From positions 1 through 27,048 of the IMG/VR virus record IMGVR_UViG_3300010399_000073: DNA of 27,048 nt; one strand, written 5' to 3'. Positions within the stretch are counted from its first letter, which is position 1, and each line of letters begins with the position of its first letter. Position numbers and translations under genes: made by a program. Positions 1 to 27,048 of this stretch are shown one piece after another. This DNA is from a virus. The notes beneath the pieces are model-generated. The model did not search any database. It saw only the letters and a list, made by a program, of their open reading frames with translations, and had not been told where the DNA came from.

Positions 1-22
1 CTCCGAAGGAGGCGGTGCACTG

Positions 23-2959: not shown

Positions 2960-4830
2960 GCCGCCCGGACAAGTCCACCGAATGGTGGAACTTGCCCAAG
3001 GGGCAGCGCGCTCAGCCGCTGTGGACTTGGTGCGACTACGTTGCGAAGCAGAATCGCACGCAGCGCATGGACACGCGGATCTTCGTCGAGGCTGTCAACA
3101 ACTTCAACCCGGACGGCAACTCCGACTTCAGCTACGCGCTGCGTAGCGCGATGCCCTACAAGATCCGCGACAATATCCTGCTCGCCGCGCGCGACACGAT
3201 GGTCGCGATGATCGCGCAAGCGCGCACCTCGCCGCAGTACCTCACGACGGCGGCCGAGTGGGGGACGAGCCGCATCGCCGAGCGGCGCTCTCGCGTGCTG
3301 CAGGGCCAGATGTACGACCTGGGCGTCTTCCAGCTCGTCCCGCGCGCGTTCGGGGACGCCTGCGACGGAGGCACGGGCTACGTGTACGGCTGCCTGGACT
3401 CGAACGGGCTGCCGTCGCTCGAGCGCTGCCTGCACAACGAGGTGTACGTCGACCCCGAGGACGGGCGCTATGGGATGCCAGAGCGCGCGGCGCGCGTGCG
3501 CTTCGTGGACCGCAAGAAGCTGCTCAAGCAGCACCCGACGATGCGCGCGAAGATCATGGAGGCGTCTGGCCCGATTGGGCAGGACTACATGGATTTCTTC
3601 ATCAAGCGCTCGTCCAAGGCGGACAAGGTGCGCGTGGTGGAGGCATGGCAGTGCGCGAGCTCCGAGGGCGCGAACGACGGGCTGTACGTCAAATCCATCA
3701 GCAACTGCGCGCTCGAGGAGCGCAAGTATCGCTGGACCGAGTTGCCGATCGTGCGCGTGGTGTTCGCGGAACGCGCGCAGGGCTACTACGGGCAAAGCCT
3801 GACCGAGCGCATGATGCCGGCGCAGATGCGTGTGTGCGAGATTGACGACTACATCGCACGCTGCCAAAAGCTCGGCTCGAGCTCGAAGTGGTTCGTTTTC
3901 CAGAACAGCGGCGTCACGCGCGACGACATCACGAACGTACCCGATCAGGTGCTGGACGTGCGATCGCCTGACCTGATGCCACAGCACGTGGTGCACACGG
4001 CGACTCCGCCGGACCTGCTCGAACAGCGGCGCGAGGTCAAGTCCGACGTGATGAACCAGGAAGGCTTCGGCGACAACGCGACGACGGGCGACGTGAACAA
4101 GGGCCTGTCGAGCGCGCGCGCGGTGCGTGCTGCCCACGACGTGCGCTCTCAGCGCTTCATCAATCCGACGCGGTATCTCGAGGACGCGTATCTCGGTGTG
4201 GTGCGGCTGATCGAGCGGCTGAACGACGAGTGCGCGGAGCTCGACCCGAACTACGCACCGAAGGCGAGATACCGCAGCGGGCGGCGCACGTGGCTCAAGA
4301 CGTCGCGGTGGCTGGATCTGTCGCTGAAGGAGCACGACGCGACGGTGCAGATGTTCCCGATCAGCGCGCAGGCGACCACGCCGCAAGGCAAGTGGAGCAG
4401 CGTCGAGGAATGGGTGCAGGCCGGCTTCGTCTCGAAGCCGCAGGCCATGGACCTCATGGAGTTCCCCGACACCGAAGCTTTCGAAGCTCTGGAGAACGCG
4501 AACTACGACCTGGTGCACGAGCAGATCGACAACATCATCTCGCTCGACAACGTGCGCGAAGACATGTTGCTTCCGGTACCCGAGCAGGACCTTGCGCTCG
4601 CGAAGTACGTGGCGCGCAACGCGATGCTCGTGGCCTTCCGGCTCGGCGCGCCCGACGACGTCATGGCGCGCTTCGACGCCTACATGGCGTACGCGCGCGA
4701 GCTAGAGAAGAAGGCGAAGGAAGCAGCAGCCCAGGAAGCTGCTGTTCAGACGCCAAACCCGGCCGCGCTGAACCCGAGCGCGCAGGCAGCGGCACAGCTT
4801 TCCGCGGTCCCCCAAGTGGCCGCAGCGTAG
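2956..4830 (+). CDS. Portal protein
   Basis: A 624-residue protein expected to form the dodecameric ring at the capsid vertex through which DNA is packaged and ejected. Size, position after the terminase, and composition fit podovirus portals: a mostly helical protein with a long stem-like C-terminal half and an Ala/Gln-rich C-terminal tail (about residues 585-624). Clip/stem-like sections include the ERMMPAQMRVCEIDDYIARC helix. GTG 2956 is the first possible start after an in-frame TGA at 2950-2952; there is no Shine-Dalgarno, and translation probably depends on coupling. The next Met is residue 38. A long open frame on the opposite strand here is a codon-bias shadow. Confidence 0.88.
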   Translation: MSRPDKSTEWWNLPKGQRAQPLWTWCDYVAKQNRTQRMDTRIFVEAVNNFNPDGNSDFSYALRSAMPYKIRDNILLAARDTMVAMIAQARTSPQYLTTAAEWGTSRIAERRSRVLQGQMYDLGVFQLVPRAFGDACDGGTGYVYGCLDSNGLPSLERCLHNEVYVDPEDGRYGMPERAARVRFVDRKKLLKQHPTMRAKIMEASGPIGQDYMDFFIKRSSKADKVRVVEAWQCASSEGANDGLYVKSISNCALEERKYRWTELPIVRVVFAERAQGYYGQSLTERMMPAQMRVCEIDDYIARCQKLGSSSKWFVFQNSGVTRDDITNVPDQVLDVRSPDLMPQHVVHTATPPDLLEQRREVKSDVMNQEGFGDNATTGDVNKGLSSARAVRAAHDVRSQRFINPTRYLEDAYLGVVRLIERLNDECAELDPNYAPKARYRSGRRTWLKTSRWLDLSLKEHDATVQMFPISAQATTPQGKWSSVEEWVQAGFVSKPQAMDLMEFPDTEAFEALENANYDLVHEQIDNIISLDNVREDMLLPVPEQDLALAKYVARNAMLVAFRLGAPDDVMARFDAYMAYARELEKKAKEAAAQEAAVQTPNPAALNPSAQAAAQLSAVPQVAAA

Positions 4831-6178: not shown

Positions 6179-7441
6179 ATGCCAACAGGTACCAACACGG
6201 ACTTCGCGTTCTTGCAGAAGATCCTGTACGACGCGGACGTCGACAAGAACGCGCTGGTCAAGGACAAGAAGGCGCTCTCCAACACGCCGCACAAGAAGAA
6301 CTTCACCAGCGCCAAGGGTTACGAGATCCCCGCGCCCTACTCGACGCCGCAGGGCGCGAGTGCGGCGGTGGCCACGGCCGCCAGCAACGCCTCGTCCAGC
6401 AAGGGTCAGAGCTTCACGGTCCCGCAGACCAACTACTACGCGCAGCTGCGTCTCGAGGGGAGCCTCGTCAAGAACGCGGCCGAGGGCAACGCGTCGAGCC
6501 AGTTCATCGACCAGGTCAAGTACGAGACCGAGATGGTCGAGGACACGATCGGCTGGGAGCTCGAGCGCCAGTTCTTCGGCTCGAACACCGGCTACCGCGC
6601 GCAGATCGGATCGGTCAGCATCGGCGCAAACACGACCGTGACGCTGAAGAAGATCAGCGACGCGATCTTCTTCCGGCCGAACATGGTCATCGTGCTCGCG
6701 GCGGTCGGCGGCGGTGCGGGCGGCGCGATTCGCTCGGCCGGTACGACCAACAAGGCCACCGTGACCGCGGTCAACGCCAAGACCGGCGTCCTGACCTTCA
6801 CCGGCCAGAACTTCACCACGCTGTTCGGCACGGCCGTCGCGGACGACTACATCTACCGCGAGGGCGACGCGCAGAACGGCGGCACGGCGAAGGTGGCAGC
6901 CGGTCTCGAGGACTGGAACCCTTCCAGCGACCCGAGTGCGACGCTCTTCTTCGGCGTGGATCGCTCACTGTCGCCGAGCGACCTCGCGGGCGTGCGCTAC
7001 GACGGCACCACCGACCAGATGCAGACGGTGTTCATCCGTGCTCTGGCGCAGTACCAGACCGAGATCGGCCGCCCCATCAAGAAGGGCGTCTTCTACATCC
7101 ACCCCCTCTACGGCGCGGCGATGCGCACGGCCTACGAGGCCAAGCGCATCGTGGAGGTGGAGTTGCCCACCACGTACGACCTGAGCGTCGAGGCGTTCAA
7201 GGTGGACAACATCAAGTTCATCGAGGCTCCGAGCTGCCCGTACGGCGTGGCGAAGTTCGTCACCGACTCTGCGTTCATCCGCGCGAGCTGCGGCGATCAG
7301 CCGGACTGGTCGAGCATGGGCTCGAGCAACTTCTGGCTCGATCCCGACACCGACACGGTCAAGGGGATGATGGCCAACTACGGCAACTTCTGCGCATGGC
7401 ACGTGAACGAGCTCATGCACGTCACGCTGCCGGCGCTGTGA
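6179..7441 (+). CDS. Major capsid protein
   Basis: A 420-residue protein in the canonical place after scaffold. It shows mixed alpha/beta composition with the layout of HK97-fold capsid proteins. Residues about 80-140 (TNYYAQLRLEGSLVKNAAEG onward) look like the E-loop/spine-helix region. A Gly/Ala-rich inserted beta region lies about residues 175-245 (VTAVNAKTGVLTFTGQNF). A C-terminal domain has FYIHPLYGAAMRTAYEAK and ends ...AWHVNELMHVTLPAL. ATG 6179 has only a weak ribosome binding site. The fold assignment is inferred, the capsid role is strongly supported by context. Confidence 0.87.
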   Translation: MPTGTNTDFAFLQKILYDADVDKNALVKDKKALSNTPHKKNFTSAKGYEIPAPYSTPQGASAAVATAASNASSSKGQSFTVPQTNYYAQLRLEGSLVKNAAEGNASSQFIDQVKYETEMVEDTIGWELERQFFGSNTGYRAQIGSVSIGANTTVTLKKISDAIFFRPNMVIVLAAVGGGAGGAIRSAGTTNKATVTAVNAKTGVLTFTGQNFTTLFGTAVADDYIYREGDAQNGGTAKVAAGLEDWNPSSDPSATLFFGVDRSLSPSDLAGVRYDGTTDQMQTVFIRALAQYQTEIGRPIKKGVFYIHPLYGAAMRTAYEAKRIVEVELPTTYDLSVEAFKVDNIKFIEAPSCPYGVAKFVTDSAFIRASCGDQPDWSSMGSSNFWLDPDTDTVKGMMANYGNFCAWHVNELMHVTLPAL

Positions 7442-18029: not shown

Positions 18030-18470
18030 ATGGCCTCGAACGCCGAAATCAAAGCAGCGAGCTACTACGGACCGAGAGCATCCGCCACTCCGACGAACGG
18101 AGACCCCGGCCTCAACACGATCCGCTTCGCGACGTCAGAGGTCGCGGCATCGCCAGAGATGAACTCGGACACGATGCAGGACGGAAGGCCCGTCTATCCG
18201 TACCAGGGGAAGTACGTCAACATCAAAAACGAGCACGCTTCGCTGGGCCTGGACGTGGCGTTTTCCGTGGCAGCTCAGACGTTGGTGTACGGGCAGACGT
18301 CGGCATCGTTCGCGGCCGGCGATGCGCGCGCCGGATGGAACCTGTCCCCCGGGGAGACGATCAGCGCGATCGTCCCCAATGATGCCAAGTTCTTCAACCA
18401 CATCCTCGAATCTGCGGGCACTGGCAAAGTCGCCATTCGCTGCAGCGAGGGGAACGTCGGGAACAAGTAA
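18030..18470 (+). CDS. Small beta-rich structural protein
   Basis: A 146-residue protein with a good ribosome binding site (TAGGAGAG) before ATG 18030. A short unstructured N-terminus is followed by beta strands (KYVNIKNEHASLGLDVAFSV, AAQTLVYGQTSASF, GETISAIVPNDAKFFNHI, GKVAIRCSEGN). It resembles compact beta-sandwich virion proteins. Its stop overlaps the tailspike ATG (TAATG), so a tail or decoration role is likely. I do not recognise the family. Confidence 0.65.
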   Translation: MASNAEIKAASYYGPRASATPTNGDPGLNTIRFATSEVAASPEMNSDTMQDGRPVYPYQGKYVNIKNEHASLGLDVAFSVAAQTLVYGQTSASFAAGDARAGWNLSPGETISAIVPNDAKFFNHILESAGTGKVAIRCSEGNVGNK

Positions 18471-20698
18471 TGCTCGTTTGGCCCAACATCGGACTGACTG
18501 TGTACGCGGAGGATCTGGTCACTCAGATCCCCGACACGAGCGCCGATGTGCCGAACACCAAGTATTACCGCGACCTAAAGGCAGCCTTTGCCCTGCTGGA
18601 CTACGACCCGCTTGAACTAAGCGGCGATCCGATTGCGGTACCGGCGATCACGCGCATCTCGGCGGGACTTGTCGGGCAGTTGACGCTGGGCTTATCGTCG
18701 CGGCCTGGACTGAGCGACGGAGAGTCCGTTATCACGTCTGGGTTCGCAGCAGCAGGCGACCGCGGAGGGGACGAGTATAAGTTTTTCGCGGGCGCGAGCG
18801 GCGGACAGATCAACGGCACCGACTTCGGCCGCATCGACTGCCCCAACGGGCAGTACCGGCTGCAATACAAGCAAAACACAGTGAGGGCGTCATCCTTCGG
18901 CGCCGGCCTCGGTCTCGGCTCGGACGGCGATCGGTTGCGCGCGGCGTGCCTGACGCTGGCCTCTACCGGAGGCGTCGTAGAGCTCGGACCCGGCACGTTC
19001 ACGCTCAGCAACAACTCGTTCGTGGCGCTGCTGCTGGCAGACAACGTCACGGTGCGCGGCGCTGGCATGGATGTGACAAAGCTGGTGCTCCCCGGCACGT
19101 GGAGCCCGGCCATCCATTTCCAGGGCAATAGTCGCTGCGCAGTTGAGGACCTGACGATCGAGCTGCAGGCGTTCGTGGACTTCATTACCGCCATCAACGC
19201 GAACGCCGCAACGGACTGCGCTGTGCGACGCTGCCGCATCTACATGACAGACGCCGCTGCGGCCAGCGCGACTCTGGGAGAGTCCACGCTCCATGCTGTG
19301 CTCGCGCAGGGCGGCACGCGGCTGATTGTCGAGGACTGCGAGATCCGAAACATGCAGCTCAAGATGGCGGGCGATAGCGGCGGTGACGGCTGCTGGGTTC
19401 GGCGCAATCGCATTGAGAAGCCGCTCAACTACGCGGTGTCGTATGTCGCGGCGGATAGCGTCGCGGTGCCCGATCCTATCCTGAATCGCTGCTACATAGA
19501 GGACAACGTCATCAAGGACTCGTGGAGCGGCGGCGCCATCTACGTCGGGCCAGACGGGGAGCAGTTCTCGGTCGCGGAGATGGACACAATCCACATCCTT
19601 CGCAACACCATCTACGGCAGCGTGGAATCGATTCCAGACGGCGAGCATTTTGGGATCTTGCTGCGCACCGCGCGGTACAGCCGCGACTTCCGTGTCTGCG
19701 GCAATACCATCATCAACGATGAGGGCACGTACGATGGCTCGTACGGAATCCGAGTGCAGTCAGTGGACACGACTGACGACGTCGACGGGCTCGACGTCTC
19801 TGACAACTACGTCGACGGCGCCGACCACGCTGGCGTCTGGATCAACGTCACCGGGCGGAACATCCGGGCCAGCCGTAACGTGCTCAAGCGCTGCCGCGGT
19901 CTCTATCTGGTCGCCGACCATGGCGACATACACGACGCTCTCGTGAGCGAGAACGAGTGCGACGCGACCGTGATTTACGGGCTTCGCTTCGTTACTGACT
20001 CTGGCAGCATCTACGGCCTCACGGTCGCAAACAACAAGGTGTGTGACGTCAACGGATCCGGCTCCGGAGCCGCAGGAAACGCTGGGTATCACTACGAGGC
20101 CACTTCGGGGCGAAGGATCGAAGCGACGAGCCGCGGCAACACAGCGCGCAACAAGTCGCGGACCGACATGGGCTACGGCGCGTGGATGTACGGCCAGGGC
20201 ACGGTCGACGTCCACTTCGAAGGCGACCGATTCTACGACCTGCACACGGGATTTTTGAAACGCGTGATCGGCCCAGCGTCGGACGAGCTCGCGGCCGGCT
20301 TCGCCACAGGCCGCGGCAACCACGGAGTCGGCACGGTGCCGTGTACGCGCGAGGTGACGATCAGGCTGTCGGACGTCAGTACCGCAAGCTCGGCTTCCGT
20401 CAAGAGCCCCTGCGCCGGCAAGATCATCGGCCGCCGTGGCTACCTCGGGGGCCCGATCACGGGCGCAAACTCGGTCATCACCGCCGCTCTGCAGCCGGCC
20501 GCAGGCGGTGGTTACACGAACATCACCGGCACGCTGACGGTCGTGGCAAGCGGGTCCGCGCGTGGTTCGCGGTTCCAGTCTGTACCGAGCGCGAACAACA
20601 CCGTGGAGAGGGCCGGGGACATTCAGATCTCCACGGACGGCGCTTCGTCAACAGCGGCTGTGTACGACGAGACGCTGATCATCCAGGAGGACGTATGA
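18470..20698 (+). CDS. Tailspike, right-handed parallel beta-helix
   Basis: A 742-residue protein. The first ~145 residues are likely the virion-binding and trimerisation part. From about residue 150 the pectate-lyase superfamily signature appears: GDRLRAACLTLASTGGVVEL then PGTFTLSNNSFVALLLADNV. This is followed by many helix rungs with N-x-I/V and short beta repeats (ILRNTIYGS, VCGNTIIND, VSDNYVDGADHAGVWI, ASRNVLKRC, VANNKVCDV). The C-terminal ~150 residues are a separate beta-rich region, possibly a jelly-roll cap. Such spikes usually bind or cleave surface polysaccharide. Catalytic Asp/Glu cannot be assigned without a structural comparison. The ATG overlaps the preceding stop. Confidence 0.85.
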   Translation: MLVWPNIGLTVYAEDLVTQIPDTSADVPNTKYYRDLKAAFALLDYDPLELSGDPIAVPAITRISAGLVGQLTLGLSSRPGLSDGESVITSGFAAAGDRGGDEYKFFAGASGGQINGTDFGRIDCPNGQYRLQYKQNTVRASSFGAGLGLGSDGDRLRAACLTLASTGGVVELGPGTFTLSNNSFVALLLADNVTVRGAGMDVTKLVLPGTWSPAIHFQGNSRCAVEDLTIELQAFVDFITAINANAATDCAVRRCRIYMTDAAAASATLGESTLHAVLAQGGTRLIVEDCEIRNMQLKMAGDSGGDGCWVRRNRIEKPLNYAVSYVAADSVAVPDPILNRCYIEDNVIKDSWSGGAIYVGPDGEQFSVAEMDTIHILRNTIYGSVESIPDGEHFGILLRTARYSRDFRVCGNTIINDEGTYDGSYGIRVQSVDTTDDVDGLDVSDNYVDGADHAGVWINVTGRNIRASRNVLKRCRGLYLVADHGDIHDALVSENECDATVIYGLRFVTDSGSIYGLTVANNKVCDVNGSGSGAAGNAGYHYEATSGRRIEATSRGNTARNKSRTDMGYGAWMYGQGTVDVHFEGDRFYDLHTGFLKRVIGPASDELAAGFATGRGNHGVGTVPCTREVTIRLSDVSTASSASVKSPCAGKIIGRRGYLGGPITGANSVITAALQPAAGGGYTNITGTLTVVASGSARGSRFQSVPSANNTVERAGDIQISTDGASSTAAVYDETLIIQEDV

Positions 20699-22280: not shown

Positions 22281-22723
22281 CCCGCTTCACCGGTCTGGAT
22301 CAGCTGCTGCCGCCCGTGCGCGAGCGCGTCGAGCGGCTCATGGCCTGGCTGCGTGAGGACGGGTACGAGCCAATGCTGCACGAGACCTACCGCACGCCGG
22401 AACGCAGCGCCGAACTCGTGGCGGCCGGCAAGAGCCAAGTAAAGGGCGGGCCGTCGATGCACTGCTACCGCATCGCGGCGGACATCATCTGCGCGCGGCA
22501 CAAGTACGGCTGCGCGAACCACCGGTGCGACTTCTTCGACCGATTGCACGCGAAGGCCCTTGGGCTCGGCTTCACGCGCGTGCGGCTCACCGATCCCAAG
22601 ACCGGGCGCAAGTACTGGGACGGGGCGCACGTCCAGGCGGTGCCTGTCGCGATGCAAGCGACGGTGCGTCGCGCCCAGCCCGAGGAGATCGAGCAGCTTG
22701 CGCGCGAGTACCTCCGTGCCTGA
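22277..22723 (+). CDS. M15-type endolysin (D-Ala-D-Ala or L-Ala-D-Glu peptidase)
   Basis: A 148-residue peptidoglycan endopeptidase of the M15/VanY-like group. The two zinc-ligand motifs are visible: S60-M-H62...A67-A-D69, and W114-D115-x-x-H118 (H62, D69 and H118 as ligands, D115 the likely catalytic acid). The family's usual Gly in SxHxxGxAxD is Arg65 here. A short Cys/His cluster at residues 72-84 (CARHKYGCANHRC) could bind a structural zinc. No signal peptide is visible, so release through a holin is expected. GTG 22277 overlaps the preceding stop. It lies beside holin-like and spanin-like genes, as in a lysis cassette. Confidence 0.87.
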   Translation: MTRFTGLDQLLPPVRERVERLMAWLREDGYEPMLHETYRTPERSAELVAAGKSQVKGGPSMHCYRIAADIICARHKYGCANHRCDFFDRLHAKALGLGFTRVRLTDPKTGRKYWDGAHVQAVPVAMQATVRRAQPEEIEQLAREYLRA

Positions 22724-23162
22724 GTGGCTCGCAGGCCCAGCCATGGGCGGTGCGCTGGTGGGGCTGATCGTGGCCCTGGCGCACGCCATCCGGCGCCGTA
22801 GCGACGCCAGCGCGGCCAAGGAAGAGGCCAGCGCGGCTCAGGACGCTGCCAGCGCGAAGGCTGTCGTCGAACTCGTCGCGCAACTGGGGGACCTCCGCCG
22901 CGACCTGGACCGCGAGCAGGCTGCCAGGGAGCGACTGCAGCAGCAGGTCGATCAGCTCGAGCAGCAGCTCGGCGCCGCGTCCAGCCGGTGCGCCTATCTC
23001 GAGGGGCAGGTCGACCAGCTCACGCGCGAGGCCGGCGCGGAGCGTGCGCGCGCGACGCAGGCGGAGGCCCGGGCGGAGGCGCTGGCCGGCGAGCTCGGGG
23101 AGCTGCGACGCGCCATCCAGGGCGGGCACACGCTGCCGAGCGGGATCCCGCCGGCGCGCTAG
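22716..23162 (+). CDS. i-spanin-like protein
   Basis: A 148-residue protein with a short N-terminal transmembrane segment (about residues 8-24, AMGGALVGLIVALAHAI) followed by a basic RRR stop-transfer patch and a long Ala/Gln/Glu-rich coiled coil (residues ~30-135). This is the layout of Rz-type inner-membrane spanins, which with an outer-membrane lipoprotein disrupt the outer membrane at lysis. GTG 22716 overlaps the endolysin end by 8 bases. I did not find an outer-membrane spanin lipobox in or just after it. Ends the rightward late operon. Confidence 0.68.
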   Translation: MPEWLAGPAMGGALVGLIVALAHAIRRRSDASAAKEEASAAQDAASAKAVVELVAQLGDLRRDLDREQAARERLQQQVDQLEQQLGAASSRCAYLEGQVDQLTREAGAERARATQAEARAEALAGELGELRRAIQGGHTLPSGIPPAR

Positions 23163-23199
23163 CTGCGCAAAATGCGTGTTCTGTCAACTAGATCGCCCA

Positions 23200-23388
23200 T
23201 CAGGCGCCGGACGCATCGAGCGCGTCGTCCAGCTTGAGCATGAGCCGATCGCGCTCGTCCTCCAGCTTCTTGACCTTGCGCTCCAGGCGGCGGATCTCGC
23301 GCTCCTTCGCCTCCAGGCGCGGGCGCCACTCGTCAGCCGCTTCCATGCCTGCTATCTCGGCGTCGGTGTAGAAGTCGCGCGAACCCAT
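23200..23388 (-). CDS. Small coiled-coil protein
   Basis: A 62-residue protein on the minus strand. After residues 1-24 (acidic start DFYTDAEIAGMEAADEW) comes a heptad-like coil (LEAKEREIRRLERKVKKLE... LMLKLDDAL). A TGATG overlap with the zinc-ribbon gene supports ATG 23388; a GTG codon one triplet upstream (23391) is possible but would sit inside the ribosome-binding region GGGGAAG. Only 37 bases separate it from the convergent spanin-like gene. Confidence 0.63.
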   Translation of the reverse strand: MGSRDFYTDAEIAGMEAADEWRPRLEAKEREIRRLERKVKKLEDERDRLMLKLDDALDASGA

Positions 23389-23552
23389 CACTTCCCCGCT
23401 TTCTTCTCAGCCATGTCCGGCAACCTGAGCGCTGCAATGCGAACGCCGTTGACGACCTGTACGCGTGGTTCCTCGGCCCGCTTGGGCGGGCAGTACGGGC
23501 ACGTGCGCGTCATTTCTCCGACCAGGATTCCGCATCGTGGACACCACATCAT
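23388..23552 (-). CDS. 54-residue zinc-ribbon-type protein
   Basis: A short minus-strand gene. The protein starts MMWCPRCGILVGEM and has a second Cys pair CPYC about 14 residues later, giving a CPRC...CPYC arrangement as in small zinc ribbons, then a short beta/helix tail with final KKAGK. ATG 23552 overlaps the upstream stop (ATGA), GGGGAAGCG lies upstream, and its stop overlaps the next gene start (TGATG). All four overlaps fit translation in series. Function is unknown; small zinc ribbons in phages often bind nucleic acid or other proteins. Confidence 0.62.
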   Translation of the reverse strand: MMWCPRCGILVGEMTRTCPYCPPKRAEEPRVQVVNGVRIAALRLPDMAEKKAGK

Positions 23553-23713
23553 CGCTTCCCCTTCGGCCGCTTGCGCTTCCGCTCGGCCTGCAGCCGCTCG
23601 TACTCCTCGTTCTCCGGTGGCACTGCCGGCAGCCCGAGCTCGAGCCGCCGCTCCTGGGCGGCGCGGTCGACCCAGGCGAGCTGCTCAGCGGTGGGGCGGC
23701 GTCGGCGCTTCAT
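23549..23713 (-). CDS. Small basic protein
   Basis: A 54-residue, highly charged protein: an N-terminal KRRRR cluster, a helix around AEQLAWVDRAAQERRLELG, and a basic tail (QAERKRKRPKGKR). ATG 23713 overlaps the upstream gene stop (ATGA), and its stop overlaps the zinc-ribbon start. An open frame extends upstream but would overlap the 142-residue gene, so the internal ATG is preferred. Family unknown; basic ends could bind nucleic acid. Confidence 0.6.
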   Translation of the reverse strand: MKRRRRPTAEQLAWVDRAAQERRLELGLPAVPPENEEYERLQAERKRKRPKGKR

Positions 23714-24138
23714 GGGGCGAGCGTAGCGCTGGTCAGCGCGGCAATCCGCTCGCATGCGTCGTAGAGGACATTGCCGGCAGCTGCGATGACGTCGCGTGCT
23801 CCCGGTTCCACCGACCCGTCGGCCACGCAGATGGCGGCGTCCTCGTGCAGCGCGTGCCACTCGTGCTGCTTGGCCTGCACGACCGCCAGGCTGGCGCGAA
23901 TGCCGTCGTTCCTGGCCGCCGCGTACCCGGCTGCGATGCGCTGGAGCGCCTTGGTCAGGCTGGTCATGGGAGAGCCATCGAGGATGGGCTCTCCCGTCTC
24001 CAGCCACGGCTTGATCGTGGCGTTCACCGCCAACACCACCGGCGGCGGATTAGGCCCGTTCCACGCAGCGAGCGCGGCCTCCCTGTCAGCCCTGGTCACC
24101 GCCCCCGTTTCGCCCCCAGTTTTCTCTGAACTATCCAT
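23710..24138 (-). CDS. Hypothetical protein beside attP
   Basis: A 142-residue protein that I do not recognise by family, first of four minus-strand genes. It begins with a short disordered acidic end, then a VTRADREAALAAWNG segment reminiscent of small unnamed phage proteins, and long Ala-rich helices (QRIAAGYAAARNDG, ASLAVVQAKQHEWHALHEDA). ATG 24138 is chosen because GAAAGGTGAG lies about 6 bases upstream; GTG 24144 would be too close. A palindrome lies just upstream at 24157-24170. Confidence 0.66.
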   Translation of the reverse strand: MDSSEKTGGETGAVTRADREAALAAWNGPNPPPVVLAVNATIKPWLETGEPILDGSPMTSLTKALQRIAAGYAAARNDGIRASLAVVQAKQHEWHALHEDAAICVADGSVEPGARDVIAAAGNVLYDACERIAALTSATLAP

Positions 24139-24156
24139 GGTCACTCACCTTTCGGA

Positions 24157-24170
24157 CGGTTTGAAAACCG
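24157..24170. promoter_or_regulatory. 14-bp palindrome before the four-gene cluster
   Basis: CGGTTT-GA-AAACCG, a perfect 6-bp inverted repeat with a 2-base centre, lies between attP and the ATG at 24138 on the minus strand. It could be an operator that controls the four minus-strand genes, or a weak hairpin terminator for transcripts coming through attP. No convincing -35/-10 pair was found near it. Confidence 0.35.
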
Positions 24171-24211
24171 CCGCTCAATACCCACCAGCGGCTTTGTTCA
24201 CGTGCTTGCAC

Positions 24212-24288
24212 AGCGGGCCCGCCTCGTGCTGTAAGCTGGCGCTATCGCTTGCGTTTGCGTGTGGCCCGCTTTGCCTTCTAAGCGATAG
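24212..24288. repeat. Interleaved inverted repeats at attP
   Basis: Two inverted repeats are interleaved here. AGCGGGCC (24212-24219) pairs with GGCCCGCT (24263-24270), and CTATCGCTT (24242-24250) pairs with AAGCGATAG (24280-24288); the last lies across the anticodon region of the tRNA fragment. The order A-B-A'-B' is that of a pseudoknot if transcribed. In DNA they may be binding sites for integrase, excisionase or host factors. A 10-bp palindrome GCGGGCCCGC (24213-24222) overlaps the first arm. Confidence 0.5.
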
Positions 24289-24319
24289 GTCGCAGGTTCG
24301 AATCCTGCTGGGACTGCCA
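24271..24319 (+). other. attP core: 3' half of a tRNA-Arg(TCT) gene
   Basis: The sequence contains an anticodon loop CTTCTAA (anticodon TCT at 24277-24279), variable region AGGTC, T arm GCAGG-TTCGAAT-CCTGC, acceptor 3' strand TGGGACT, discriminator G and CCA (24317-24319). It resembles bacterial tRNA-Arg(TCT) from anticodon to 3' end. The 5' acceptor strand (AGTCCCA) is absent upstream, so it is not a complete tRNA. It starts five bases after the integrase stop, as expected for a tRNA-targeting attachment site that restores the host gene on integration. Confidence 0.8.
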
Positions 24320-24323
24320 CTTT

Positions 24324-25415
24324 TCACGGCAAAACCCCCATACACGAGTCGCGTAGAGGCTCGCTGGGACCCGTGCACGGCATAGATTCTTGCACAACGT
24401 CTTTCACACTGATCCGGGCTACCGCGGACACCAGCGAAGCCGTGTCGAAGTGGCTGTACACCGCGCGCACCATGGCAGTCGAGGCGTGCCCCATCAGCTC
24501 GGCCGTGATGCGCTCGGGCACCCCTGCCTGGCACAGCCAGCTGCAGAAGGTGCGCCGGAAGTCGTTAGGGCTGGCCTTGGCGATGCCCGCCCGCTTGCAC
24601 GCCACCTCGAGGTCGCGCCGGTCGTTGGTCCACGGCGGGAAGCTCGCGCGCCTGGAGAACACCTCGAAGGCCTCGTTGGCCAGCGGCACGACGCGCTCGG
24701 CCTTGTCCGTCTTGGTGCCCCACACCTTCAGCTCGCGCTTGGCCACGTCGAGGTCGCGCTCGCGGTTGTACGCGGTGAGCTCGGCGCGGCGCAGCCCGGT
24801 GAAGCACCACGCGGTGATGTAGTCCGCGCGCAGCTCCTCGGTCCGGCCAGAGGTCACGGCCAGCGACTCGATCAGCGCGGTGTACTCGGCGCGCGGCAGC
24901 CAGCGCTCGCGGGGCTTGTAGACCTGCCCCATCTCCTCGGGCTTGAGGTCGGGCGGCGGCTGCAGCCCGGCGAGCTTGGCCACGCGCTTCCACGCTTGCT
25001 TGAGCGCGATGAGCTCTTTGTGGATGGTGTGCCGGTCGCCGCCCTGCTCGAGGCGCTGTTCGAAGTAGCGCGTGGTGTCCGAGATGGTAATCGTCGTGAT
25101 CGGGCGGTCTGCGCCGAGCAGCTCGATGAGGTGCCGCGCGTGGTAGCTCGTCGCGCGGACGGTGTTCTCCGCCCGGCCCTTCTTGCGCTGCAGGTCGAGC
25201 AGGTTGGCCATCGCGATCTTCAGCGTGACTTTCGACGAACGCGCCGCGTTGGAGTCAGCAGCATATCGGCGCTCGATTTCGCGCGCGGCAAGCTGCGCCG
25301 TTCTCTTGTCGCGCTGTTTGGTGCTTTCGCGCCAGATCTTCCCGTTGACGTCGTATCCCCAAGCCCACCAGATGAGTCCACGGAGATAGAGTCTACTGCT
25401 TGCTTTCCGTGCCAC
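24324..25415 (-). CDS. int: Tyrosine integrase
   Basis: A 363-residue site-specific recombinase. Residues 1-60 form the arm-binding region (LYLRGLIWWAWGYDVNGKIW), 65-165 the core-binding helical domain, and 175-340 the catalytic domain. Catalytic residues visible: R209 (TGLRRAEL), K235 (GTKTDK), R287 (NDFRRT), H310 (MGHAS) and nucleophile Y320 (VYSHF). The usual His of HxxR is Asn284. GTG 25415 is chosen because GGAGG lies 6 bases upstream and it begins the conserved N-terminus; TTG 25436 is in frame but has no such site. The stop lies five bases from the tRNA fragment. The start lies inside the HTH gene. Confidence 0.92.
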   Translation of the reverse strand: MARKASSRLYLRGLIWWAWGYDVNGKIWRESTKQRDKRTAQLAAREIERRYAADSNAARSSKVTLKIAMANLLDLQRKKGRAENTVRATSYHARHLIELLGADRPITTITISDTTRYFEQRLEQGGDRHTIHKELIALKQAWKRVAKLAGLQPPPDLKPEEMGQVYKPRERWLPRAEYTALIESLAVTSGRTEELRADYITAWCFTGLRRAELTAYNRERDLDVAKRELKVWGTKTDKAERVVPLANEAFEVFSRRASFPPWTNDRRDLEVACKRAGIAKASPNDFRRTFCSWLCQAGVPERITAELMGHASTAMVRAVYSHFDTASLVSAVARISVKDVVQESMPCTGPSEPLRDSCMGVLP

Positions 25416-25597
25416 TCGCCGCCTCCAGAGATCCAACGCTCGAGTACTTCAGGCCGAATCCGCAGCAGGCGCCCGACGCGCACGTGGGCGAGCGAGAGCA
25501 TCACCTCGCTGGCCTTGCCGTACTTGCAGCCAAGACGTTCCATCACGTCTTCGACGGTCAGCAGCGGCGCGGGCTTGTGGTCTCGTGCGGCACCCAT
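25220..25597 (-). CDS. Excisionase-like HTH protein
   Basis: A 125-residue protein with a winged helix-turn-helix of the MerR/HTH_17 excisionase-like type at about residues 11-57 (LLTVEDVMERLGCKYGKASE and then GRLLRIRPEVLERWI). It could act as Xis or a regulator of integrase. AGGAGG lies 8 bases before ATG 25597. The C-terminal ~65 residues (SISVDSSGGLGDTTSTG...), read in a different frame over the first 196 bases of int, look unstructured; this part may be tolerated overlap. Start and N-domain are well supported. Confidence 0.72.
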   Translation of the reverse strand: MGAARDHKPAPLLTVEDVMERLGCKYGKASEVMLSLAHVRVGRLLRIRPEVLERWISGGGEWHGKQAVDSISVDSSGGLGDTTSTGRSGAKAPNSATRERRSLPRAKSSADMLLTPTRRVRRKSR

Positions 25598-25800: not shown

Positions 25801-25991
25801 CGGTCAGCGTTCGGGCACGTCGAAAAGTGCGAGACGTACGTGTTGCGCATGCGCGCCTTCATCGGGTCTTTGCCGGCTTCGATCACGAACCGGCGCTCGG
25901 GTTCGAAGTCGAGCGGCATGCGCTTGCCGTTCTCGGTCTCCACCCACAGGATGTGGGCGTTGCAGCTCTTGCACTGTGCCCGCTCGCTCAT
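25785..25991 (-). CDS. Small Cys/His (zinc-type) protein
   Basis: A 68-residue protein with an N-terminal CKSC motif, a short beta region (HILWVETENGKRMPLDFEPE) and a C-terminal HFSTC motif (Cys and His about 42 residues later), so likely one zinc site from CxxC and HxxxC. Small proteins with this layout (CKSC...ENGKRMPLD...SHFxTCP) are common in phage early regions. ATG 25991 overlaps the upstream stop (ATGA). A longer start at GTG 26009 would overlap the J-domain gene. Function unknown. Confidence 0.7.
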   Translation of the reverse strand: MSERAQCKSCNAHILWVETENGKRMPLDFEPERRFVIEAGKDPMKARMRNTYVSHFSTCPNADRWRKT

Positions 25992-26602
25992 CGCGGCCCC
26001 CGCAGCCACGCCAGCGCAGCATCACGCGCGCCCTGCAGTTCGATGAACAGCTCGTGCGAGCCGCCCGCGTCCGGGTGCGCGATCTTGCTGCGCGTGCGGA
26101 ACGCGTCCTCGACGTGCGCCACGCTCGCCGGGTAGTCGACCAGGCCCAGCGTGTACACCCACTCGGGCTTGGGCGCGGGCAACCCCTTGTTTGCGAACGT
26201 CTGCATGGTGCGATCGAGGATCTGTGTCGCCCCGCTGCGCTGAATCGCGCGCAGGCCCTCGAGCGCCATCCCGATCGCGCGGATGTTCTCGCGCACGCTC
26301 GGGTGCATGTCGCAGGCGATCACGCGCGTCTCCTGGCGCTTCGGGTCGAGCCACCAGAGCGCGACGCCAGGATCCTCACGGGCGCCGCGTCCCTCGGTGG
26401 GCGGCAGGCCCGACTTCACGCGCAGGTTGCTCGACAGGCTCCACTGCCGAACGCCCATGCGCTTGAGGCTCTGCAGCGCCTCGGTCTGCGCCTGCAGGTA
26501 CGGCACCTCGTACTTCGAGCGGTGCTGTTTGGCGTACGGCGTGCGCGGCCACTCTTCGGGCCAGAACAGCGGGTACGGCGCTGGTAGTTGGGTCGTGCTC
26601 AT
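25988..26602 (-). CDS. J-domain-containing phage protein
   Basis: A 204-residue protein. The C-terminal ~40 residues are a minimal J-domain-like helix pair with the HPD motif (FRTRSKIAHPDAGGSHELFI, H176-P177-D178), the part of DnaJ proteins that stimulates Hsp70 ATPase. The first ~140 residues (WPRTPYAKQHRSKY, then RQWSLSSNLRVKSGLP, VIACDMHPSVRENIRAIGMA) resemble unnamed phage proteins that carry the same C-terminus. ATG 26602 is chosen because the sequence upstream is a basic read-through of the repeat gene's end. Its stop overlaps the zinc-type gene. It could recruit host DnaK, or the HPD may have another role. Confidence 0.75.
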   Translation of the reverse strand: MSTTQLPAPYPLFWPEEWPRTPYAKQHRSKYEVPYLQAQTEALQSLKRMGVRQWSLSSNLRVKSGLPPTEGRGAREDPGVALWWLDPKRQETRVIACDMHPSVRENIRAIGMALEGLRAIQRSGATQILDRTMQTFANKGLPAPKPEWVYTLGLVDYPASVAHVEDAFRTRSKIAHPDAGGSHELFIELQGARDAALAWLRGPR

Positions 26603-26610
26603 GCCGGCTG

Positions 26611-27048
26611 CTACGCGCTCTTGTCGGCGCGCTCGAACGAGCCGTCTGCGTTGAGACGGTACGGCACGTTCGGCTCGATGCCGTCTTCGCCGACGTGCGC
26701 GACGTGCATGCGATAGCGCTTGCCGTTCCACCGCTTGATGCAGAGGATCCCGTCGTCGCCCGCGGTGGCGGTGCCTCTGTTGCCCGCGGTGGCGGTGCCG
26801 GCGTAGCCCGCGGTGGCGGTGCCGTCGTCGCCCGCGGTGGCGGTGCCGGCGTAGCCCGCGGTGGCGGTGCCGTCGTCGCCCGCGGTGGCGGTGCCGGCGT
26901 AGCCCGCGGTGGCGGTGCCTCTGTTGCCCGCGGTGGCGGTGCCGGCGTAGCCCGCGGTGGCGGTGCCTCTGTTGCCCGCGGTGGCGGTGCCTCTGTTGCC
27001 CGCGGTGGCGGTGCCGGCGTCGCCCGCGGTGGCGGTGCCGGCGTAGCC
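26611..27048 (-). CDS. Partial octapeptide-repeat beta-solenoid-like protein
   Basis: A gene cut at its 5' end by the window edge; 145 residues are visible before the TAG at 26613-26611. The visible N-terminal part is 12 tandem octapeptides of the form G-(Y/N/D)-(A/R/D)-GTATA. A separate 50-residue C-terminal domain follows (GILCIKRWNGKRYRMHVAHV, then GEDGIEPNVPYRL). Alternating Y- and D/N-type units give a 16-residue period, which resembles the ice-nucleation protein repeat with its TxT motif. A beta-solenoid is likely. It heads the visible minus-strand operon. No start or signal sequence can be seen. Confidence 0.78.
   Translation of the reverse strand, partial: GYAGTATAGDAGTATAGNRGTATAGNRGTATAGYAGTATAGNRGTATAGYAGTATAGDDGTATAGYAGTATAGDDGTATAGYAGTATAGNRGTATAGDDGILCIKRWNGKRYRMHVAHVGEDGIEPNVPYRLNADGSFERADKSA
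26761..27048 (-). repeat. 24-bp tandem repeat, 12 units
   Basis: Twelve 24-bp units lie inside the partial minus-strand gene. On the plus strand each has an invariant 15-base block (cgcggtggcggtgcc) and a 9-base variable block with only four alleles: tctgttgcc, ggcgtagcc, gtcgtcgcc and ggcgtcgcc. All encode in-frame octapeptides on the minus strand. The array runs off the window end, so the total copy number is unknown. The exact identity of the 15-base block suggests recent expansion or gene conversion. Regular in-frame spacing excludes CRISPR. Confidence 0.93.

Follow-up and report, generated by a model that had tools for sequence, protein, structure and literature searches.

The arrangement described here is the standard anticodon-type tRNA attP, which is well known; only this example of it is new. 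The sublocations within tRNA genes are reportedly a topic of Williams (2002). In its account of genomic islands, the Islander paper describes attP sites that carry part of the tDNA, by which the tDNA is restored upon integration, and it counts 2083 islands with class A (anticodon-centred) sites as well as a 3′ fragment in 3760 of 3919 islands (PMC4383910). Phage YA3, with a serine tRNA, serves as a worked example. In tRNA-dependent lysogeny, as outlined in PMC10865867, a short common core does not rebuild the tRNA, and a whole tRNA gene carried by the phage replaces the disrupted host tRNA.

Two related integrases come with visible attachment sites. The record of Pseudomonas phage D3 (AF165214) lists a misc_feature ‘AttP’ at 27039-27099; from the integrase stop at 27104 to the edge of this feature it is 4 bases. 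The opposite strand of the feature carries a tRNA-Leu(TAG) 3′ half, from the loop TTTAGGT to CCA, with CCA 9 bases from the integrase stop; we assigned its isotype after comparing it with an intact tRNA-Leu(TAG) in a bacterial genome, G398. This genome holds a 49-kb prophage (C1:2090511-2140010) at a tRNA of the same isotype as the D3 AttP. The stop of the prophage integrase lies 12 bases past the CCA of the intact tRNA-Leu(TAG), and a 66-base block starting at tRNA position 30 is duplicated exactly 49,434 bases away. Eight long ORFs picked between the att duplicates include replication, terminase, portal, regulator and tail proteins.

A tRNA-Arg(TCT) 3′ half beside an integrase gene

The window analysed here is the whole 27,048-base stretch of an IMG/VR virus record, a linear fragment of an incomplete genome. 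On the plus strand, positions 24273-24319 hold a tRNA-Arg(TCT) 3′ half that extends from the anticodon loop to CCA and that we read as the core of an attP. It comprises GC, with which the 5′ anticodon stem ends (24273-24274), the anticodon loop CTTCTAA with the anticodon TCT (24275-24281), the 3′ anticodon stem GCGAT (24282-24286), the variable stretch AGGTC (24287-24291), a perfectly paired T-arm (stem GCAGG, 24292-24296; TTCGAAT, 24297-24303; CCTGC, 24304-24308), the acceptor strand TGGGACT (24309-24315), the discriminator G (24316) and CCA (24317-24319). We assign the isotype as Arg because the anticodon is TCT.

In ungapped alignments with three real tRNA-Arg(TCT) genes over their 3′ 47 bases, the half shows 41, 42 and 43 identities; the runner-up place in the whole window, both strands considered, reaches 26, 26 and 28 identities to the same three ends. 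Judged from these alignments, the resemblance is not a chance one. Upstream of the core, the 5′ part of the tRNA scores 8, 8 and 7 identities of 29 in the same register with the three genes, and the best match to a 5′ half in the window (19-20 of 30) lies elsewhere. ARAGORN found no whole tRNA gene in the 27 kb window, itself an incomplete genome, and the Rfam tRNA model yields 21.2 bits at the site against a cut-off of 29. Since the 3′ half matches, the 5′ part is at chance level, ARAGORN reports no tRNA and the Rfam score falls below the cut-off, what is present is half a tRNA, cut at the anticodon stem-loop. A whole or split tRNA was considered and rejected, as the Rfam model reaches its sub-cut-off score here by being stretched over the 5′ side, just as it does at the D3 AttP region (21.0 bits).

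A blastn search of 24263-24330 against phages matched 684 records. In all 40 listed of these, the match starts at 24271-24274. The annotation among the same 40 is tRNA-Arg in 11, which have the best E-values (5e-7), tRNA-Lys in 25, all except one from Mycobacterium phages, and uninformative in 4.

Two features of a tRNA-gene attP at the anticodon (A) sublocation are found at 24273-24319: a tRNA fragment that starts in the anticodon region, continues to the 3′ end and lacks the 5′ half, and a tyrosine integrase gene adjoining it, with 4 bases between CCA (24319) and the stop of the convergent integrase (24324-24326, minus strand). The initial annotation had placed an anticodon-to-CCA half of tRNA-Arg(TCT) here, which the 41-43 identities of 47 and the absence of the 5′ half bear out. 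Its description of the site stands, while its span of 24271-24326 is slightly wide, running from two bases before the half to the end of the stop codon, and the five bases it counted between the tRNA half and the integrase stop are four.

The integrase and the genes around the site

The integrase gene (24324-25436, minus strand) encodes 370 residues when read from a TTG, and the true start may be internal. The product matches Pfam PF00589 (1.2e-15) and PF02899 (1.1e-4) and the family phrog_1 (1.2e-38). Its relatives in phages amount to 81 records, of which the 20 listed are all Pseudomonas phages, among them D3, whose integrase is 27% identical over 94% of the window protein. Plasmids contributed 13 records, all below 60% identity, and a single-protein scan of viral_contigs, which detects close relatives only, confirmed none. 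Among 398 genomes of one phylum, with at most five candidates per genome scored among the matches listed, a single genome gave a match at or below 1e-15; this was G398, with 33% identity to its prophage integrase.

The catalytic set of tyrosine recombinases consists of R, K, H-x-x-R, H and Y. In the window integrase, the R in TGLRRAEL, the R in NDFRRT, the H in MGHAS and the Y in VYSHF align with three relatives, and the catalytic Lys is presumably the one in TKTDKAERVVPL. Box II reads SPNDFRRTF (24546-24572), and residue 291 is an Asn (codon 24564-24566, minus strand) at the position of the box-II His of the aligned relatives. These have His in three of three cases (HDLRHT in D3 and in the G398 prophage, HDLRRT in a Deinococcus plasmid integrase), as does the integrase of Rhizobium phage RHph_N28_2 (HDLRGT). 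The box-II His of tyrosine recombinases is not absolutely invariant, and for this reason the window integrase is probably active; N291 could reduce its activity.

Overlapping the integrase start, an ORF at 25220-25597 (minus strand) encodes an HTH_17-like protein (PF12728, E 6e-4, 20.5 bits against a cut-off of 27; no PHROG match). From its position, which is that of the corresponding genes in D3 and the G398 prophage, it is a probable excisionase. Farther to the right, 25988-26602 (minus strand) encodes a 204-residue protein of phrog_9210 (6.3e-33) with relatives in 11 phage records, 8 of them annotated as molecular chaperone, DnaJ-like or J domain-containing. The gene at 26611-27048 (minus strand) consists of 8-residue repeats, GTATAG plus two varying residues, in 24-base units, and its product matches phrog_18079 (1.6e-42). 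The right end of the record stops within this 24-base tandem repeat, where the assembly probably broke.

To the left of the core lie four small minus-strand ORFs (23200-23391, 23388-23552, 23549-23713 and 23710-24144), with 4-base overlaps between neighbours. Searches with the four gave no informative homologue: there is one 21-residue match to phrog_10210 (9e-4), a phage family of unknown function, and the coiled-coil matches are below cut-off. In composition, 23163-24260 agrees with the remainder of the window; its r of 0.918 equals or exceeds the values of 60% of equally long windows. We regard the four as phage genes mainly by their position and composition, a weaker case than the initial annotation made when it put phage genes on both sides of the site; that statement holds for the integrase on the right and for the terminase and tail side on the left, and less so for these immediate neighbours. 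Next on the left are a gene with a weak Rz-like spanin match (22560-23162, E 0.0026) and a beta-helix protein (18470-20698), followed further left by adaptor and terminase genes.

The structural side of the record is nearly orphan. Within positions 1-22280, 3 of 18 mechanical ORFs, some of which overlap and are perhaps not genes, have a PHROG match: a small terminase, a large terminase and a tail protein (SU10 adaptor in Pfam). The terminase has two distant matches in phages and the 6179-7441 protein has none there; single-protein scans of viral_contigs, sensitive to close relatives only, confirmed no relative of the terminase, the 6179-7441 protein or the 25988-26602 protein.

These surroundings bear on whether the site belongs to a free phage genome or to the end of a prophage. 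Because the tRNA half has integrase DNA 3′ of it and no 5′ half, it is not a prophage attL, and because the integrase sits on the right it is not an ordinary attR. The claim that this is the arrangement of an attP and not a prophage end is upheld by the integrase on the right, the terminase and tail genes on the left, the missing 5′ half, the continuous composition and the shared geometry of two integrase relatives. If the contig instead spanned the junction of two tandem prophages, or joined attR and attL chimerically during assembly, the site would be an attP-like hybrid within an array; an attR/attL tandem junction has a sequence identical to attP, the record is incomplete and lacks end repeats (its first and last 3 kb share no 14-mer), and tandem islands do occur, the Islander paper giving 125 tandems of two or more beside its 3919 islands (PMC4383910). 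However, the host-facing attL of such an array would carry an intact tRNA, which is absent here, none of the ORFs scanned was recognised as host-like, the composition runs continuously across the site, and arrays of this kind are rarer than a plain attP. We consider this origin of the contig scarcely plausible.

Integration model and host prediction

We are highly confident that the tRNA half is the attP of a temperate tailed phage, whose integrase (24324-25436) would recombine it with a tRNA-Arg(TCT) gene of the host. This reading builds on the tRNA half and its missing 5′ counterpart, on the convergent integrase next to it, and on the matching layout of D3 and of an integrated relative. The activity of this copy, its exact crossover point, its arm sites and its host are inferred. 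Strand exchange with the host tRNA-Arg(TCT) would take place in or beside the anticodon loop. The host 5′ half would then be completed by the phage’s own 3′ half up to CCA, leaving an intact tRNA gene at the integrase end (attL), and the host 3′ half would be displaced to the far end (attR), beyond the ORFs at 23-24 kb. The loop CTTCTAA (24275-24281, plus strand) is likely the strand-exchange (overlap) region, since tRNA identity among the phage matches begins at 24271-24274, the shared block of the G398 prophage begins at tRNA position 30, directly ahead of the loop, and the Islander class A sites are centred on the anticodon (PMC4383910).

The presumed P arm to the left of the core (24180-24272) is unlike a tRNA 5′ half: aligned in the tRNA register, it is identical at 7-8 of 29 positions. 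Three candidates for arm-type sites were examined against 200 dinucleotide shuffles of 24180-24420 and rejected: a direct repeat CTTGCACAGCG/CTTGCACAACG flanking the core, which 33 shuffles reach; a 12-base inverted repeat ending at 24274, which 6 reach, a count uncorrected for three tests; and a 9-base inverted repeat at 24242-24250/24280-24288, which 23 reach. Integration by tRNA-dependent lysogeny was likewise rejected, as the resemblance to a tRNA extends over the entire 3′ half and the incomplete 27 kb holds no tRNA gene.

The fragment could also be imagined as the remains of a phage-borne or once-acquired tRNA-Arg gene that has decayed, plays no part in integration and lies beside the integrase by accident. 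Whole tRNA-Arg genes do occur in some phages, as the annotation of 11 of the 40 listed records illustrates, the integrase has N in place of the box-II His, and no matching host tRNA turned up in the genomes searched. Yet the part that remains covers the anticodon loop, an intact T-arm and everything on to CCA, next to a 5′ half at chance level, and decay is not expected to halt at the anticodon. The closeness of the half to the integrase stop (4 bases) is, moreover, common to D3 (9) and the G398 prophage (12). Such a relic is thus very improbable. Read as an attP, the site marks a phage with few recognisable genes as temperate, or as descended from a temperate one. It also predicts the ends of the prophage form and supplies a 47-base probe for a host search, directed at a tRNA-Arg(TCT) with a nearly identical 3′ half.

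By base pairing with the phage half, the host tRNA should have the 5′ anticodon stem ATCGC and the acceptor 5′ strand AGTCCCA, or wobble variants of either. The initial annotation predicted a bacterial tRNA-Arg(TCT) with an identical 3′ half, and the genome search did not confirm it: the exact 45-mer of the half occurs in none of the 84,980 species of genome_contigs, and a search of 398 genomes from a single phylum, Pseudomonadota, to which the Nitratireductor MAG belongs, revealed no copy within 3 mismatches. In viral_contigs, the exact 45-mer, a 32-base piece of the half and a degenerate pattern all gave zero matches. The same degenerate pattern detected three tRNA-Arg(TCT) loci in genome_contigs, in Parvularcula, Hirschia and Nitratireductor; these were rejected as hosts, differing from the window at 7, 6 and 5 of 48 3′-part positions, respectively. 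Blastn against plasmids returned 65 records that are 80-95% alike over part of the query, none above 95% identity or covering 80% of it. The relatives of the 25988-26602 protein, found in viruses of Synechococcus, Microcystis, Erythrobacter, Caulobacter, Halorubrum and Haloarcula, do not settle the host.

One more specific scenario is that the phage belongs to a host lineage absent from the searched species genomes, has a tRNA-Arg(TCT) gene as its attB and carries Asn naturally in place of the catalytic His of box II. Taken as a whole we find this unlikely; if it were true, the chemistry or control of integration would differ from that of the D3-type relatives.

Comparison with other tRNA-directed phages and islands

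The site in Rhizobium phage RHph_N28_2 (MN988516) resembles that of the window in having a tRNA-Arg(TCT) 3′ half (3000-3048 of the stretch examined) beside a convergent integrase gene, in a circular record that lists no attP or other feature there. Its integrase is very distant from that of the window (27% identity over 51 residues, E 2e-4), and 70 bases lie between CCA and the integrase stop. RHph_N28_2 is an independent parallel. Unlike the window half, that of RHph_N28_2 has exact counterparts in genomes: of 249 genomes from a single order, 2 contain its 45-mer, both times within a whole tRNA-Arg(TCT) gene, with identity over the last 49 bases. Its exact presence in whole tRNA genes indicates that the host-prediction method can work when the searched genomes include relatives of the host. 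The class A islands of the Islander paper share the attP with a 3′ tDNA fragment starting from the anticodon; as presented there, they are integrated islands in sequenced hosts (PMC4383910), whereas the window is known from the attP side alone.

Phage D3 has an excisionase gene overlapping the integrase start, then the integrase, then, in the opposite direction, a tRNA 3′ half that starts at the anticodon loop and ends in CCA; phage genes flank it on either side. The gene order excisionase-integrase-attP is that of the window, where the excisionase is a sub-cut-off HTH_17 match. D3 differs in its tRNA, Leu(TAG) instead of Arg(TCT), in the distance from CCA to the stop (9 against 4 bases) and in an integrase that is only 27% identical and has His in box II. 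The prophage in G398 likewise combines a related, convergent integrase with an excisionase-type gene overlapping its start and a tRNA at the integrase end. It also uses tRNA-Leu(TAG) and not tRNA-Arg(TCT), and, unlike the window, it is integrated, so that both of its att sites are visible. It thereby displays the form predicted for the window after integration, with the tRNA restored at the integrase end and the displaced 3′ half at the other. Because these two integrase relatives, one free and one integrated, show the same geometry, the attP reading of the window site is well supported.
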